Positions 2,302-18,504 of a stretch of DNA of 21,614 nt are shown here, piece after piece. The notes beneath the pieces were generated by a model, which saw only the letters and a list, made by a program, of their open reading frames with translations, did no database searches and was not told the origin of the DNA. The translations under genes were made by a program, and so were the position numbers. Positions within the stretch are counted from its first letter, which is position 1. The number at the start of each line of letters is the position of its first letter. The stretch is from a virus, in the IMG/VR virus record IMGVR_UViG_3300014962_000054, positions 1 to 21,614 of that record; one strand, written 5' to 3'.

Positions 2302-2339
2302 TCGTGTGGGGACCGGATGCAGGGCCGGTCCCCACACGA
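2302..2339 (+). terminator. 15-bp hairpin upstream of the glycosyltransferase cassette
   Basis: A perfect 15-bp inverted repeat, TCGTGTGGGGACCGG with its complement, encloses an 8-base loop (ATGCAGGG). There is no U-run. It ends 23 bases before the GTG start at 2363, and the Shine-Dalgarno AAAGG lies just outside the stem. Likely a terminator, attenuator or RNA-processing hairpin that separates capsid expression from the downstream enzymes. Confidence 0.75.
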
Positions 2340-2362
2340 CCCCCTGCCCGAAAGGCCACCCT

Positions 2363-3532
2363 GTGAACAAACTTGCCGCACTCATGGTCACCAACGCCCT
2401 GTGGACCCGATCCGGCTACGGCACCCAAGCCAGACAGCTCCTCACCCGCATGGCGAAAGACGGGCACGCGCTCGCCGTCGCCGCGAACTACGGGCTGGAA
2501 GGCACCATCACCGAATGGGACGGCATCCCCCACTTCCCCCGGGGAACCGACGCCTATTCAAACGATGTGGTGACCGCGTACTACCAGGACTGGACGGGCA
2601 GGCACTCGGGCCGGTCGCCGCTGCTGATGACGCTGTATGACGTGTGGGTTTTGAACGCGAGCATCTATGACGAGGCTCCGGTGGCGTCGTGGGTGCCGAT
2701 TGACTGCGCGCCGGTCGCGGAGGGTGTCGCGGCGTTCCTGTCGAAGCCGAATGTGACGCCGATTGCGATGAGCCGGTTCGGTGAGCAGACGATGCAGGAC
2801 GCCGGGATCGACTGCCGGTATGTGCCGCACGCCATCGACACGGACGTGTTCACGCGGACTGAGACGGTCGATACGGCTGCGGGTCCGATGACTGGCCGGC
2901 AGATCATGGGCGTTGACGGCGACCAGTTCGTCATCGGCCTGGTGAACGCGAATCAAGACCGCAGGCCGAGCCGGAAGGCGTGGCCCGAGAACCTTCTCGC
3001 CGCTTCCATTTTCTGTCAGGCCCACGACGACGCGGTGGTCTACATCCATACGGAGCGCCACGGCCTCATGGGCGGCTTGAACATGGACGACCTGTGCAAG
3101 GCGGTCGGCTTGCGTGAGCATCAATACAAGTTCGTGAACCAGTACGCATTCCGACAAGGCATCCCACAGGAGGGCATGGCTGCCCTGTATTCGGGCTGCG
3201 ACGTGCTGCTTGCGGCCTCCTATGGGGAGGGCTTCGGGCTGACGGCTCTTGAGGCGCAGGCGTGCGGGCTTCGGGTCATCCTGAATGACTGGTCGGCGCA
3301 GTCGGAGCTGTGCGGGGATGGCTGGCTGACGGCGAATCAGCCGTGGTGGAATCCCGAGTTCAAGTCGTGGTGGAAATCCCCGAGTGTCTCGTCGATTGTC
3401 GAGTCTCTTGAGGCCGCGTATGCCGCTCCTCGGGGCCATTCGGACAAGGCTCGGGCGTTCGCTGTGCAGTATGACGCGGATCTGGTGTATCGGCAGCGGT
3501 GGCGTCCGGTGCTTGCGGAGTTGGCCGCATGA
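2363..3532 (+). CDS. glycosyltransferase, GT4-like (GT-B fold)
   Basis: Predicted retaining glycosyltransferase of the GT4 type, transferring a sugar from a nucleotide donor. It has 389 residues, the usual size. The N-terminal half has a Rossmann start (LAALMVTNALWTRSGYGTQ) with the Gly-rich acceptor loop GYGTQ. The C-terminal half has the family hallmark GEGFGLTALEAQACG (about residues 290-305), with the E-x7-E pair that binds the nucleotide-sugar. The GTG start at 2363 follows AAAGG; a further in-frame GTG at 2306 is inside a hairpin and is rejected. The stop overlaps the next start (ATGA at 3529-3532), so it is translationally coupled to the GT2-like gene. Position among head genes suggests modification of capsid or tail proteins, as seen in some actinobacteriophages; the target is inferred. 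Confidence 0.85.
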   Translation: MNKLAALMVTNALWTRSGYGTQARQLLTRMAKDGHALAVAANYGLEGTITEWDGIPHFPRGTDAYSNDVVTAYYQDWTGRHSGRSPLLMTLYDVWVLNASIYDEAPVASWVPIDCAPVAEGVAAFLSKPNVTPIAMSRFGEQTMQDAGIDCRYVPHAIDTDVFTRTETVDTAAGPMTGRQIMGVDGDQFVIGLVNANQDRRPSRKAWPENLLAASIFCQAHDDAVVYIHTERHGLMGGLNMDDLCKAVGLREHQYKFVNQYAFRQGIPQEGMAALYSGCDVLLAASYGEGFGLTALEAQACGLRVILNDWSAQSELCGDGWLTANQPWWNPEFKSWWKSPSVSSIVESLEAAYAAPRGHSDKARAFAVQYDADLVYRQRWRPVLAELAA

Positions 3533-4176
3533 TCCCGGTGATGGTGGTGCCGGTGCTGGCGCGGCCCGATCTGCTGTCAAGGATGATTGACAGCGTTGAC
3601 TTCCCGGTCGGGCATCTGATCGTCATCGACAACGGCGGCTGCGTTGACACCGACCGGCTTCGATCCGAGCAGATCGAGCGCGTGTCCGTGGTTCGGATGC
3701 CCGCGAATCTCGGTGTCGCCGGGTCATGGAACCTCGGCATCAAATCGGCACCGTTCGCGCCGTGGTGGCTGATCGTCAACTTCGATGTGGTGTGGCCTGC
3801 CGGGTCGCTGGAGCGGTTCGCGATTGAGTCCGACCCGTCTGCGCTCGTCCTCTCGTATGGGTCGCCGCCGTGGTGCGCGTTCGCGCTCGGCGAGCGGGTC
3901 GTCCACGAGGTGGGCCTGTTCGATGAGGCGCTGCACCCCGCGTATTTCGAGGACAACGATCTTGAGCGACGTTGCGAGGCTGCCGGGGTGCCGGTGCGCC
4001 GGTCCACGATCCCAGTGCGTCACGACAACTCGTCCACGCTGGCAGCCGGGTACGCGGTGCGGAACAGCGAGACGTTCAGCGCGAATGCCGAGTATTACGG
4101 GCGCAAGCTCGCTCGCGGCGACATCTCCGAGGGCCGCTGGAGCCTTCACAGGCGTCGGGAACTGTCATGGGACTAG
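3529..4176 (+). CDS. glycosyltransferase, GT2-like (GT-A fold)
   Basis: Predicted inverting-type GT2 transferase, 215 residues, a minimal GT-A domain without membrane segments. Visible motifs in order: N-terminal strand IPVMVVPVLARPD, the nucleotide-binding IVIDNGG (31-37), the NLGVAGSWNLGI segment (60-71) typical of rhamnosyl-like GT2 enzymes, the metal-site region VNFDV (83-87) in place of the usual NDDV/DxD, and the acceptor/catalytic block GLFDEALHPAYFEDNDLERR (129-148) with the classic FEDxDLxxR signature. It starts on the ATGA overlap with the GT4-like gene and overlaps the next gene by 10 bases. This makes a three-gene coupled cassette. It probably adds a second sugar or works on the same acceptor; the substrate is unknown. 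Confidence 0.85.
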   Translation: MIPVMVVPVLARPDLLSRMIDSVDFPVGHLIVIDNGGCVDTDRLRSEQIERVSVVRMPANLGVAGSWNLGIKSAPFAPWWLIVNFDVVWPAGSLERFAIESDPSALVLSYGSPPWCAFALGERVVHEVGLFDEALHPAYFEDNDLERRCEAAGVPVRRSTIPVRHDNSSTLAAGYAVRNSETFSANAEYYGRKLARGDISEGRWSLHRRRELSWD

Positions 4177-12338: not shown

Positions 12339-13263
12339 ATGGCCATTCTGCTGTACCAAGCCGTCAACGAACATCTCGACGATCTGCGCGCCAAGGGCCG
12401 CACAAAGTCCACGCTCGCCAACCACCGCCAGGCGCTGATGCACGCAATCGACGCCTGGGGGAACGTGGACTGCCGGGACATCCGCGAAGAGCAGATCACC
12501 CGGTACTTCGCGTGCGTTCGGCCAGTTCCTTCGCCGCCGCTCCCTGTGGCCCCGCGACTTCGACCCGATGGAGGGCTGGAGCGTGAAGGGCGCGACCCGC
12601 GTGGAACGGCTCTGGCTGACCGTCCCGCAGATGGTGGAGCTTCGCGAGTCCGAGCCGTGCCCGCGCAACCGCGCCCTGTTCGCGCTCGGCACCTACACCC
12701 TCGGCCGCGCCGGCGAGATCACCAGCCTCAAAGTCGGCGACCTCGACCTCGAGCGGAACAACCTCGTGCTGTACCGGCACAAGACCCGCCAATGGGACCG
12801 CCTGCCGGTGTGCGAGGAGCTCGGCGACGAGATGCGCATGTGGCTGGGCCACTACCGCGCGGTGATGGGCGAGCTCGACCCTGAATGGCTGCTCGTCCCG
12901 GCGATGCACCCGGTGCCGATGATCGGCGTGATCGGCTCCAAGCGACTGGTTCCCTCGGGAGCTCCGCGGAAGATGAAAGTTGAATCTCCGATTTCCAAGC
13001 CTTCATCGCTCGCGTCGGAAGCACTGCGCCGGATCGGATTCCGGGAGCCAGGCAACGGCATGCACGTCCTACGCCGGTCAAGTGCGCGAGAGATGTTCGA
13101 GCAGCTGCGCGCCGACGGATACGACCACGCACTCCGCAGGACTGCGAGCCTGCTCGGGCACATGCACACCTCGGAGACCGAGCACTACATCGGCATCGAC
13201 GGCGAGCGCCGCGCCCGTGACGAGATGCTCGCAGGCAAGCGCATGTTCAAACTCGCGGCCTAG
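12339..13263 (+). pseudogene. tyrosine recombinase broken by a frameshift in the core-binding domain
   Basis: Reads as one tyrosine recombinase split over two frames. From ATG 12339, after a strong AGGAGG, the product starts MAILLYQAVNEHLDDLRAKG and runs RTKSTLANHRQAL to EEQITRYFA, a SAM-like core-binding domain. Near 12505-12520 the homology leaves this frame, which then runs on as nonsense to 12884. It resumes one frame over as AFGQFLRRRSLWPRDFDP and continues to 13263. About 20 residues usual between YFA and FGQFL also seem absent, so a small deletion fits better than one lost base. The span is 925 bases, that is 308 codons plus one. A read or assembly error cannot be excluded. It lies between tail fibre and lysis genes, not by attP. 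Confidence 0.72.
12568..13263 (+). CDS. tyrosine recombinase catalytic-domain fragment (from the broken gene)
   Basis: The open 3' part of the broken recombinase, 231 residues if started at ATG 12568, the first start codon after the frame's last stop (12436-12438). No ribosome-binding site is evident there. All catalytic positions can be seen: Arg47 in GRAGEITSL, Lys72 in YRHKTRQWD, the H-x-x-R motif His166-Arg169 in HVLRRSSARE, His198 in LLGHMH and the nucleophile Tyr207 in ETEHYIGI. A full active site argues that decay is recent, or that the fragment is still made, for example by frameshifting. A terminator hairpin with TTTT follows at 13280-13302. Confidence 0.7.
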   Translation: MEGWSVKGATRVERLWLTVPQMVELRESEPCPRNRALFALGTYTLGRAGEITSLKVGDLDLERNNLVLYRHKTRQWDRLPVCEELGDEMRMWLGHYRAVMGELDPEWLLVPAMHPVPMIGVIGSKRLVPSGAPRKMKVESPISKPSSLASEALRRIGFREPGNGMHVLRRSSAREMFEQLRADGYDHALRRTASLLGHMHTSETEHYIGIDGERRARDEMLAGKRMFKLAA

Positions 13264-14452: not shown

Positions 14453-14712
14453 GCCTTGCCGACCGTCTGCAACAGGCTTCGCCTGTGTTCCGTGGGCTGC
14501 CGTGCCCTATCGCAACGATCATGGCGCAACTGGAAGAACGTGACCGGGTGGAGTTGCTGACCCAACTCGACGTGCCTGCGGGCACGACGGGCCGCATGGC
14601 GAACACGACTATTGCGGCGGTGCTGACTGAGGAGGGGTTCGCGGTGCATTACAAAGGCGTGGAACGTCACCGCAACCGGCTGTGCCGCTGCTTCATGGGG
14701 ACGGGCCTGTGA
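14449..14712 (+). CDS. small HTH-like phage protein (Cys/His-containing)
   Basis: An 87-residue protein starting MSLADRLQQASPVFRGLPCP. The middle (MAQLEERDRVELLTQL, then TTGRMANTTIAAVLTEEGF) and the end VERHRNRLCRCF fit a compact helix-turn-helix of the type often found in actinophages beside a phosphoesterase gene. The pattern is Cys near residue 19, a helical pair, a second helix with AVLTEEG, then R-H-R-x-C. The function is not known; DNA binding is inferred from the helix pattern and basic end. It overlaps the endolysin stop (ATGA) and the next gene's GTG start (14709-14712). Its first 17 bases after the initial A are identical to those of the next gene. Confidence 0.6.
   Translation: MSLADRLQQASPVFRGLPCPIATIMAQLEERDRVELLTQLDVPAGTTGRMANTTIAAVLTEEGFAVHYKGVERHRNRLCRCFMGTGL
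14450..14466 (+). repeat. 17-base direct repeat, copy 1 (gene start)
   Basis: TGAGCCTTGCCGACCGT, identical to 14710-14726. Both copies begin at the second base of a start codon and encode SLADR. Confidence 0.9.
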
Positions 14713-15893
14713 GCCTTGCCGACCGTTTGGAGTCGCTTGCGGCTGCCGGTTCAACGGTTCCTCAGGTGCGGTCGGCTGCGCCGTCTGGTTGGGAGCCGGG
14801 AGTCCGGTACGAGCCGGACGGGTCGCGCATCGTGACGTTGCCGCCGTCGCCGGAATTGTCTGACGAATCATCGTGGTCGGCTGCGGTGGAGTCGCTTGGG
14901 GTTTCGGTGCCCGCCGGGTATCGGGTGCGCCTGGTGGAGGCTAAATACGATCCGGCTGCTTGGCATCGGGACGCGGAGGGCGGCGATGCCGTGACCCGCC
15001 CGGTGTGGCGGTACAGGTTCGTGGTCGAGGTCGCGCCCGCCCGTATCGACGTTGACGATTTGCTGCGTTCGGTGCGGTCGCGCCGCAAGGCTCCCGCGCC
15101 CGCCGAGGGTGCCGCGTTCTGCTACGCCGTCGCCGACACCCAATGGGGCAAGCCCGATGGAGACGGCTCGGCGGGCACGGTGCGCCGGTTCTATGACTCG
15201 CTTGACCGTGCGGTACTTCGGTACAAGTACCTGCGGAAACGGAACACGGCTGGCCCGGTGCTGCTCCTCATCGGAGGGGACTGCATTGAAGGGTCGGAGT
15301 CCGGCGGGTCCACGCGCATGTTCAGACTGGATCTGACGGTCACGGAGATGGTCCGCGTGTACCGCCGGACGCTCGCCGACATGGTGACGGCGTTCGCGGA
15401 GCTGTCCGATGATGTGACGGTCGCGGTCGTGCCAGGTAACCATGATGAGGCGAAGCGGGTCGGTGATCAGATGGCGACCCGCTATGACGATTCGTGGGCG
15501 ATTGAGGGCGCTTCGCAGGTTGCGGACGTGCTGTCGGCGAAGGGCCACAACGTCGGGTGGGTGTTCCCTGACCGGGACGGCCTGCATTTGACGGTTGAGG
15601 CTGCGGGTACTCGGGTCGGGCTGCTGCACGGGCATCAGACGCGGGGGAAGATGCAGTCGTGGCTCGCCTCGAAGGCGATGGCGCGTGACCCGATTGGGAC
15701 GGCTGACGTGGTGGTGTCGGGTCATTTCCATCATCTGCGGTTGGAGCAGTACGGGGCGACGTGCTGGATGCAGACCGGAAGCCTTGATGGGGGCAGTCAA
15801 TGGTTTGAGCATCGGGGCGGGTTGTCTGCTCCCCCGGCGGCGTTGACGTTCCTGGCCGCTGACGGCAAATGGAATGCGCTGGAGGTCGTGTGA
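14709..15893 (+). CDS. calcineurin-like metallophosphoesterase
   Basis: A 394-residue two-metal phosphoesterase; the substrate (nucleic acid, nucleotide or phosphoprotein) cannot be told. Residues 1-130 form an N-terminal domain of unknown role. The catalytic domain follows with five motif blocks in order: ADTQWG (Asp143, Gln145 where D-x-H is usual), GGDCIEG (Gly190-Asp191), PGNHDE (Asn244-His245-Asp246), LLHGHQT (His307, His309) and VSGHFHH (G-H-x-H, His339, His341). The Gln in place of the first His may alter metal binding. Such D-x-Q variants occur in phage members of the family, as far as I recall. GTG 14709 overlaps the small HTH-like gene. The two probably act together, outside virion assembly. 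Confidence 0.83.
   Translation: MSLADRLESLAAAGSTVPQVRSAAPSGWEPGVRYEPDGSRIVTLPPSPELSDESSWSAAVESLGVSVPAGYRVRLVEAKYDPAAWHRDAEGGDAVTRPVWRYRFVVEVAPARIDVDDLLRSVRSRRKAPAPAEGAAFCYAVADTQWGKPDGDGSAGTVRRFYDSLDRAVLRYKYLRKRNTAGPVLLLIGGDCIEGSESGGSTRMFRLDLTVTEMVRVYRRTLADMVTAFAELSDDVTVAVVPGNHDEAKRVGDQMATRYDDSWAIEGASQVADVLSAKGHNVGWVFPDRDGLHLTVEAAGTRVGLLHGHQTRGKMQSWLASKAMARDPIGTADVVVSGHFHHLRLEQYGATCWMQTGSLDGGSQWFEHRGGLSAPPAALTFLAADGKWNALEVV
14710..14726 (+). repeat. 17-base direct repeat, copy 2 (gene start)
   Basis: TGAGCCTTGCCGACCGT, second copy of 14450-14466, at the start of the metallophosphoesterase gene. Confidence 0.9.
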
Positions 15894-16129
15894 GCATCCT
15901 TGACGAGCGTGCCAAGCACTACGGCACCGGCGACGAGAACATGTCCCGCATCGCCCGACTGTGGACCGCCTACCTCAACCCACGCCGCCCGATCACCGCG
16001 TCCGACGTGGCGTGGATGATGGTGATGGTGAAGGCGTCTCGCGCCCGTATCGACCCCGACCACCTGGACAATTACACGGACGCCAAGGGGTACACCGAGC
16101 TTGCCGAACGCCTCCGGTCAATGCGATGA
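15890..16129 (+). CDS. DUF6378-like small phage protein
   Basis: A 79-residue protein with the layout of the DUF6378 family found in many phages: an N-terminal ILDERAKHYGTGDENMSRIARLW, a middle ITASDVAWMMVMVKASRAR, and a C-terminal DNYTDAKGYTELAERL (each shown in part). It is all-helical with conserved-looking Y-G, DNY-D and Y positions. The biochemical role is unknown. GTG 15890 overlaps the metallophosphoesterase stop (GTGTGA), and its own stop overlaps the next ATG at 16126. It is therefore part of the same coupled block of non-structural genes between lysis and integration modules. Confidence 0.7.
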   Translation: MSILDERAKHYGTGDENMSRIARLWTAYLNPRRPITASDVAWMMVMVKASRARIDPDHLDNYTDAKGYTELAERLRSMR

Positions 16130-16878: not shown

Positions 16879-17682
16879 TTACAGGCCCGCGACGGCCCGG
16901 TACGGGGCCGACTGCGCGAGTTGCGCGTAACCCTGCGTCGTCGCCACCGACGCATGACGGCACAACCTGGCGACCGTCAACAGGTCACCGCCGGTCAGCC
17001 GGTACAGCTGCGTCGCGTAGGCGTGGCGCAGCGAATGGAACGTGTGCCCGGTCACCCCGACCTCGGCTGCTGCCCGCTGCCAGCGACGGTTGATCGACTT
17101 CGGCCACCACGGCCAGATCGGTGCCGGGTCGCCCGCATACGGGGCCAGCACGTCCACGACCCTCGGGTGCGCGGGGACGACGGCGATCAGCCCGCCTTTG
17201 CCCCGCACCCGCACCGCTGGCCCGTCATCGGTAGCCACCAGATCCGTTCCGGCGACCCGCGTCACCTCGCCCGCCCGCAGGCCGAGGAACGCCCCGAGAA
17301 CCGTCCAGTCCCGCGCATCGGCGTCGGCCATCGTCAGGCATCGGTCGATATCCACGCGGGGAATCGGGCGCGGCTGGCGTCGCGGGACTTTGGGCACCTT
17401 CACCAACCGGGCCGGGTCGTTGCCGACCAGCCCTAGACGGTTCAGGTCCGCGAAAATCACCCGCATGGTCCGAAGGTAGGTGGCGCGGCTTGAGGCGCTC
17501 AGATCGCCTGAGAGGGCGTTTCTGAGGTGTTCCACGGTCGCCTCGCCCGGCGGGACGGCCAGATGCCGCAGGACGTAGATCCGCTGACGGATCGTCTCCT
17601 CCGACAGCCCTTCCATTCGCATTTGGTCGAGGTAGGCCCGTTCCAGCCCGTCGCGACCGGCAACGACCGTGGTTCTATTCAC
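16879..17682 (-). CDS. int: phage integrase, tyrosine recombinase
   Basis: A 267-residue integrase for site-specific recombination between attP and a host tRNA gene. The core-binding domain spans about residues 8-95 (YLDQMRMEGLSEETIRQRIY, SSRATYLRTMRVIFADLN). The catalytic domain follows with every active residue: Arg136 in FLGLRAGEV, Lys162 in RGKGGL, His216-Arg219 in FHSLRHAYATQL, His243 in CRHASVATT and Tyr252 in TQGYAQL. It is small because no N-terminal arm-binding domain is present. The start is GTG 17682, after GGGGGGAA. Longer in-frame reading through a C18 tract up to 17808 exists, but those starts lack a ribosome-binding site. It faces leftwards away from attP. Confidence 0.92.
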   Translation of the reverse strand: MNRTTVVAGRDGLERAYLDQMRMEGLSEETIRQRIYVLRHLAVPPGEATVEHLRNALSGDLSASSRATYLRTMRVIFADLNRLGLVGNDPARLVKVPKVPRRQPRPIPRVDIDRCLTMADADARDWTVLGAFLGLRAGEVTRVAGTDLVATDDGPAVRVRGKGGLIAVVPAHPRVVDVLAPYAGDPAPIWPWWPKSINRRWQRAAAEVGVTGHTFHSLRHAYATQLYRLTGGDLLTVARLCRHASVATTQGYAQLAQSAPYRAVAGL

Positions 17683-17710
17683 TTGGTTCCCCCCAGTTGT
17701 GAATGACCTT

Positions 17711-17740
17711 GATATGCGGGGGGGGGGGGGGGGGGCGCAA
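17711..17740 (-). promoter_or_regulatory. possible integrase promoter with a homopolymer spacer
   Basis: On the minus strand TTGCGC (plus 17735-17740) and CATATC (plus 17711-17716) are 18 bases apart, and nearly all of the spacer is the C tract. Each hexamer matches consensus at only three positions. The placement, about 28 bases before GTG 17682 and its Shine-Dalgarno, is right for the integrase promoter. Confidence 0.3.
17718..17735. repeat. 18-base poly-G (poly-C) homopolymer
   Basis: Eighteen consecutive G on the plus strand, 35 bases upstream of the integrase start and about 120 bases from attP. Tracts this long are prone to length change on replication. The exact length in the assembly may also be unreliable. 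Confidence 0.95.
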
Positions 17741-17820
17741 GTGCATTCGGTGTTTTGGTCTGCGACACGCCGACACGCGCCGTTTTGGGTCCGATTTGCA
17801 GGGGTCATGCGCTAGCCTCC

Positions 17821-17843
17821 GGTTCATTGGTTCGGTTAGAACC
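17821..17843 (+). other. tRNA D-arm-like hairpin next to attP
   Basis: GGTTC/GAACC closes a loop ATTGGTTCGGTTA that looks like a tRNA D-loop (two GG pairs). No anticodon arm lies between it and the T-arm, so this is not a working tRNA. Confidence 0.45.
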
Positions 17844-17856
17844 ACCCCGCAGTCCG

Positions 17857-17886
17857 ATATGGGTTCAAATCCCACCCGGGGCACCA
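17857..17886 (+). other. attP: attP core: 3' end of a tRNA gene (T-arm, acceptor, CCA)
   Basis: TGGGTTCAAATCCCA forms a T-arm, followed by CCGGGGC, the discriminator A and an encoded CCA ending at 17886. Only the 3' part of a tRNA is present: the anticodon arm is missing and the 5' acceptor pairs poorly. It lies beside the integrase, as attP sites do when the phage restores the 3' end of the host tRNA after integration. The target tRNA would begin with GCCCCGG or a close match. The left limit of the core cannot be set without the host sequence. Confidence 0.8.
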
Positions 17887-17908
17887 CCCGAGAAATCGGA
17901 CTTGCGGA

Positions 17909-17939
17909 GCGGTCCTAGCCACGACGGTTAGGGGACCGC
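17909..17939 (+). other. hairpin right of attP
   Basis: GCGGTCC pairs with GGACCGC, and inside it TAGCC pairs with GGTTA (one G-T) around an ACGAC loop, with a two-base bulge. It lies 23 bases past the attP core and may bind integrase or a host factor, or be a terminator of the host tRNA type. Confidence 0.4.
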
Positions 17940-17985
17940 CGTGAATGAGTGTGCGACACATTCTGCAACCGCATCACGAGTAGGC

Positions 17986-18004
17986 CGGTCATTGATCGGT
18001 CAAT
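17986..18004 (+). promoter_or_regulatory. operator- or arm-type repeat in the control region
   Basis: CGGTCATT and CGGTCAAT are direct repeats offset by 11 bases, one helical turn. Within them ATTGA-TCGG-TCAAT is a perfect inverted repeat. Either a repressor or the integrase/excisionase could bind here. There is no ORF I trust in 17887-18264. Confidence 0.4.
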
Positions 18005-18034
18005 CTTCCATTGGCGTACACGCCACCCACAGCT

Positions 18035-18077
18035 CCCCCACGCCGGGTAATCCCCCGTTCCCGGCGTGGGGGTCTTT
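18035..18077 (+). terminator. strong terminator right of attP
   Basis: A perfect 13-bp stem CCCCCACGCCGGG with its complement, 12-base loop, then TCTTTG. It would stop rightward transcription coming from attP or the host before the early genes. Confidence 0.85.
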
Positions 18078-18123
18078 GTCGTGTCCCGGGTCCGGTTGGG
18101 AAGCCGCCCGGGGCGCTCAGGTT

Positions 18124-18143
18124 CCGGCCCTTCCGTAGGCCGG
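18124..18143 (+). other. hairpin in the control region
   Basis: CCGGCC/GGCCGG, 6-bp perfect stem with an 8-base loop. Role unknown. Confidence 0.35.
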
Positions 18144-18197
18144 ATCGCGGCAGGAGAGGCCGCAGCGCACCACCACAACTGAATACCCCACCGGAAA

Positions 18198-18241
18198 GCG
18201 GGGGGCCGTGGCCCCTGCGACCACCAGCCACGGTCCCCCGC
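18198..18241 (+). promoter_or_regulatory. 15-bp leader hairpin before the early operon
   Basis: GCGGGGGGCCGTGGC pairs with GCCACGGTCCCCCGC over 15 bp with one G-T pair and a 14-base loop. It ends 23 bases before ATG 18265 and has no U-run. It is probably in the 5' leader of the early mRNA and may affect stability, termination or translation. Confidence 0.65.
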
Positions 18242-18264
18242 CTCACCCAATCGAGGTATCACCC

Positions 18265-18504
18265 ATGACTCTTGACCTAGCAATCCTCACGGCTCTGGCC
18301 GTCACCTCTGTATGCACGGCGTTCGTCGCCTACTGGATCGGCGTCGGCCACGCAGAGCGCAAGGCCCGGGCCAGTGTCGAGCATTACCGCTCGGACGCCG
18401 CTACCGCCACCGCACTGTTCATGGCCGGACGGGACGACCGGCTCGCCGACGTGCTGGCCGAGCCGACCGGCCCGGTGCTGCGCGTCCTGCGAGGTGGCGC
18501 ATGA
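18265..18504 (+). CDS. small membrane protein with one N-terminal span
   Basis: A 79-residue protein, function not recognised. Residues about 4-25 (DLAILTALAVTSVCTAFVAY) form one membrane span, followed by a charged soluble tail (GHAERKARASVEHYRSDAAT, then AGRDDRLADVLAEP). It is the first gene of the rightward early operon. GAGG lies 9-10 bases before the ATG. The stop overlaps the next start (ATGA at 18501). Small membrane proteins at the front of an early operon often act in exclusion of other phages or in host takeover; there is no motif here to choose. Confidence 0.65.
   Translation: MTLDLAILTALAVTSVCTAFVAYWIGVGHAERKARASVEHYRSDAATATALFMAGRDDRLADVLAEPTGPVLRVLRGGA

Follow-up and report, generated by a model that had tools for sequence, protein, structure and literature searches.

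A recurrent poly-G tract 5' of the integrase gene in a group of temperate actinobacterial phages, a candidate length-variable promoter element

Random on/off switching by slippage is known from bacterial surface genes, and in porA of Neisseria meningitidis phase variation proceeds through a poly-G promoter spacer. The phage locus described here resembles porA in that a G tract precedes the gene, lies close to a -10-like element and differs in length between relatives. It deviates from porA in that the gene encodes a phage integrase and not a surface protein, and in that no recognisable -35 is present. We consider the analogy to be a functional one and not a demonstrated membership, because the hexamer TTGCGC beside the tract is not conserved and the phages have no common -35.

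Mycobacterial NucS does not repair indels of 1-2 bp (PMC11551767), and runs of 9 nt in M. smegmatis show a frameshift frequency of >1% (PMC10159617). These indel-prone homopolymers would share with the present tract the actinobacterial hosts, the high-indel character of the runs and the lack of indel repair by NucS, but both studies deal with host chromosomal runs and reporters, whereas the tract analyzed here is noncoding and phage-borne. The intS gene of KplE1 is similar in its layout, with an integrase promoter region between int and a tRNA-derived att core and with probable regulator sites, but is controlled by protein autoregulation, and the abstract mentions no homopolymer (PMC2951348). 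In intA of ST64B a heritable state of the integrase promoter alters integration; there the state is epigenetic (Dam methylation), while here it would be the length of a tract (PMC12455584). The literature searched, which lacked most subscription papers, offered no published case of a phage integrase under homopolymer control.

The window, i.e., the whole stretch of DNA analyzed, is a complete IMG/VR record of 21,614 bases and represents an actinophage fragment that encodes head and tail proteins as well as lysis and lysogeny functions. Its G tract (C18 on the integrase coding strand) counts exactly 18 bases, as the earlier note had read it. Apart from it, no base is repeated more than 6 times in succession anywhere in the window, and a first-order model expects about 2e-6 G runs of 18 or longer in such DNA. 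The coordinates of the main features are collected in Table 1. The integrase contains the catalytic residues R136, K162, H216/R219, H243 and Y252. The attP core was assigned because it matches the 3' ends of tRNA-Leu(CAA) genes in genome contigs exactly: bases 17861-17883 (23 nt) are found in 20 contigs, and ARAGORN called tRNA-Leu(CAA) in 16 out of 16 contigs scanned. The locus thus carries both marks of a tRNA-targeting tyrosine-integrase module (the catalytic residues, and an attP core equal to a host tRNA 3' end beside int), with the host lineage being deduced from this tRNA only. As the attP core is located to the right of the tract and the integrase to the left, the tract lies between the two. 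Just right of the attP region (18035-18078, plus strand) there is a strong terminator-like hairpin with perfect arms of 13 bp followed by TCTTTGT.

Table 1. Features of the integrase region of the window and of two genes nearby.
Feature	Position	Strand	Remarks
Metallophosphoesterase-like gene	14709-15893	+	Named from motifs only; query for relatives (up to 73% identity)
Small conserved gene	15869-16129	+	3' of the metallophosphoesterase gene; gene order common to L233, L249, L251, L252, L263 and L306
Tyrosine integrase, 267 aa	16879-17682	-	PF00589, E 4e-10; start GTG at 17682
GGGGGG, Shine-Dalgarno-like (C6 on the plus strand)	17689-17694	-	6 nt before the GTG
CATATCAA	17709-17716	-	Includes the TAT of a possible -10, 3 nt past the tract
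18-G homopolymer	17718-17735	+	Precedes the integrase GTG by 35 nt
TGCGACACGCCG element	17761-17772	+	Core CGACACGCCG
attP core, T-arm and acceptor end of tRNA-Leu(CAA), TGGGTTCAAATCCCACCCGGGGCACCA	17860-17886	+	

Two further regions of the window are worth recording. A second tyrosine recombinase at 12339-13263 (plus strand) is apparently decayed, with an N-terminal domain from 12339 to about 12510 and a catalytic part at about 12512-13263 in another frame, and sequence apparently missing in between. Two glycosyltransferase-like genes (2306-4176, plus strand) directly follow the major capsid gene and are kept in contigs L251 and L252.

With the window integrase as a single-sequence query, no close relatives were found in the viral or genome collections; the 27-mer of the attP core is absent from the viral contigs, and blastn of the region against the phages collection gave no match. 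Relatives were fetched via the metallophosphoesterase-like gene and not via the tract, except for L306, which came from an integrase-type search. Four out of six relatives with an integrase at this place have a tract at the same position 5' of the minus-strand integrase gene (L251, G16; L306, 15; L252, G14; L249, G11), while L253 and L263 have none. Among the set fetched with the metallophosphoesterase, the sole long G runs are those of L249, L251 and L252, each just 5' of the integrase, and no other G/C run of at least 8 occurs in the stretches read of the tract-bearing relatives. In the nine relatives that lack an integrase there, no run is longer than 6. The tract is thus found in five of the seven phages with the integrase (window included) versus none of the nine without it (Fisher p 0.005, a value that ignores kinship, L249, L252 and L306 being close kin). 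Contig L263 is a more distant phage (integrase identity 55%).

Wherever they overlap the window, the contigs L251, L252 and L306 run colinear with it, with identities of 50% for the major capsid protein (L252), 49-56% for the glycosyltransferase (L251, L252) and 70% for the metallophosphoesterase (L251, L252, L306). A distant relative found by its tract alone, L233, has a C18 before its integrase start and the same order (endolysin, small gene, integrase, C18) as the window group; selected in this way, it was not counted as an unbiased case. The earlier note had proposed comparing the tract length in related phages, and the lengths indeed vary (11, 14, 15, 16, 18 and 18, including L233); these are consensus lengths of assemblies and differ between species, not isolates.

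The same comparison bears on the idea that the tract is an assembly artefact or a chimeric join at poly-G; the earlier note had listed an assembly collapse artefact among the outcomes fatal to its own reading. Of the exact 18-G tracts among the matches listed, about half are close to an end of their viral contig, and in L251 the contig stops 16 nt beyond the tract. The tract nevertheless recurs in the corresponding position of four related, independent contigs and as C18 in a distant fifth. The flanks of these contigs differ, but their genes to the left and right are arranged alike, and the integrase and the attP core lie on opposite sides of the tract. The recurrence in the four contigs and L233 therefore makes the tract neither a chance run nor a one-off assembly error, and we consider an artefact very unlikely. 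A two-colour dark-cycle poly-G artefact was also considered and rejected, since near-end tracts among the matches listed have outward G (35) as often as outward C (34).

The tract persists while its surroundings change. The integrases of tract-bearing phages are down to about 30% identical, and the tract is common to phages with two tRNA targets, tRNA-Leu and a tRNA-Asn-like one (identified by reading). Between L306 and L249, four successive blocks of 50 bases up to the tract have 45, 50, 49 and 43 bases alike (86-100%), whereas between the tract and the start codon only 19 and 15 out of 30 are alike, after which the genes are nearly identical; judged from these two phages, the flanks change fast and the tract is kept. 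More distant integrase relatives (127 loci in 696 kb) have no tract, and in a separate survey of 96 integrase loci the G/C runs within 250 nt upstream do not exceed 6 except in L249, L252 and the tract-selected L233. Prophage integrases of the host order also have no tract. The tract is therefore not a general property of these integrases. We conclude that it is real and recurrent, and probably functional, because it is kept despite integrases of about 30% identity and diverged flanks.

The main null explanation is neutrality: a spot prone to homopolymer growth, by slippage without indel repair, and without any role. It draws on the fast mutation of the flanks, on the wide occurrence of long G tracts in unrelated viral contigs (see below) and on L253, in which loss of the tract is tolerated. 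The integrase of L253 is 91% identical to that of L252, and a deletion has removed the tract and the GTCAC repeats with the whole upstream region, so that the tract is not indispensable. This deletion (L253:6220-6300) leaves the integrase gene intact and offers a useful natural comparison. A neutral run should, however, decay, whereas four lineages have a single tract per genome, always at this place, in spite of strong divergence of flanks and integrase, and the surveyed loci mentioned above, apart from the three exceptions, have at most short runs upstream. We therefore rate neutrality as unlikely, though as an explanation to be taken seriously.

Exactly 18 G were also searched for independently in viral contigs, giving at least 120 stretches (L128-L247). 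Among the matches listed, 39 tracts are interior with clean flanks, and eight of these have a tyrosine-recombinase reading frame no more than 600 nt away, versus 2.5 expected (p 0.0008). One of the eight is L233. This enrichment is only a hint, because in six of the eight the tract is located 3' of the recombinase gene or at its end. In L203 and L174 the recombinase reading frame itself ends in the tract.

The earlier note placed the tract as an 18-base spacer between two promoter hexamers. Read on the minus strand, CATATC (17716-17711) does follow TTGCGC (17740-17735, with one base borrowed from the end of the tract) after a gap of 18 bases, and the GTG lies downstream with the Shine-Dalgarno-like GGGGGG before it. 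The hexamers are as weak as the note had warned (3/6 matches each), and a sigma-70 scan of 17550-18300 returned no promoter. The general part of the proposal finds support, in that the tract is situated in the 5' regulatory region of a genuine integrase gene beside attP, varies in length among relatives and is followed by TAT in most phages; the particular hexamers find none, as TTGCGC is not shared and no common -35 was found among the six tract-bearing phages.

On the coding strand, the distance from tract to start codon is 27 nt in L306, 35 in the window, 36 in L252, 43 in L249, 45 in L251 and 71 in L233. A TAT begins 0-9 nt after the tract in five out of six phages (window 3, L251 2, L252 0, L306 0 and L233 9 nt), while 6.9% of background 12-nt windows contain a TAT; in L249 no TAT follows the tract. 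This enrichment, noticed post hoc, is no more than suggestive; it would fit a -10 element for which the tract serves as the spacer. The distances from the tract edge to TAT (14, 15, 18, 21 and 27) are mostly outside the canonical 16-18. On the upstream side, L249, L252 and L306 contain GTCAC repeats spaced about 11 bp apart and share CGGCGTGTCG with the window. The motif CGACACGCCG also occurs between tract and attP core in these three phages and is kept in the tract-less L253. A role as promoter spacer or at the promoter edge appears to be the best fit for the tract.

The main mechanistic rival is a role in the mRNA leader. Transcription would start upstream, and a C-rich leader would pair with the G-rich ribosome-binding site and lower integrase translation, with tract length being of minor influence or acting via loop size. 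In the window, GGGGGG at 17694-17689 is predicted to form pairs with a transcribed C tract, and there is an inverted repeat (17677-17694/17729-17746). In the predicted folds of the five near-relative leaders, C's of the tract are paired to G's in the ribosome-binding site or close by (GGGGGG, GGGGG, GGGTGGG). Poly-C pairs with any G run, however, and 11-18 C are more than such pairing needs. In addition, G-rich sites also occur at tract-less integrases (L314, L315), and L233 has a canonical GGAGGTGG site at 71 nt from its tract. We consider a leader role improbable.

The earlier note also offered a longer, in-frame integrase whose Pro run crosses the tract, such that with a start upstream of the tract slippage would move the extension in or out of frame. 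In all five near relatives the frame runs open from the tract into int, but the upstream reading is also open at most other tract lengths tried, and protein conservation begins only after the tract. Moreover, a conserved upstream DNA block and int do not stand in the same frame relation in L252 as they do in L249 and L306, and every phage has a good ribosome-binding site and start after the tract. The tract does not lie inside a conserved reading frame with an upstream start, and this translational form of phase variation has very little to recommend it.

Our preferred reading, with a likelihood we put slightly short of even, is that the G tract belongs to the int promoter/leader region of a group of temperate actinobacterial phages as a recurrent cis element of variable length, in which slippage alters int transcription. 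The tract would lie at or inside the int promoter spacer, followed directly by the TAT of a putative -10 element and preceded by regulator-type repeats. In hosts poor at repairing small indels, strand slippage would shift the tract length, the altered length would change the spacing and thereby the strength of int transcription, and phage populations would come to contain genomes that differ in their readiness to integrate. Slippage itself is plausible, since NucS of actinobacteria leaves small indels unrepaired and 9-nt runs in M. smegmatis shift at >1%, on the assumption of a similar host; control of integration by such slippage is a plausible hypothesis.

The integrase region may then be a contingency locus in the lysogeny switch, in which slippage in a poly-G tract that is conserved and noncoding sets the level of integrase expression, leaving each burst mixed in its integration propensity; we put this forward tentatively, as possible but rather less than evenly probable. 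If true, the choice between lysis and lysogeny would gain a heritable bet-hedging component besides its regulators, and this would apply to uncultured actinobacterial phages, in which lysogeny has hardly been studied.
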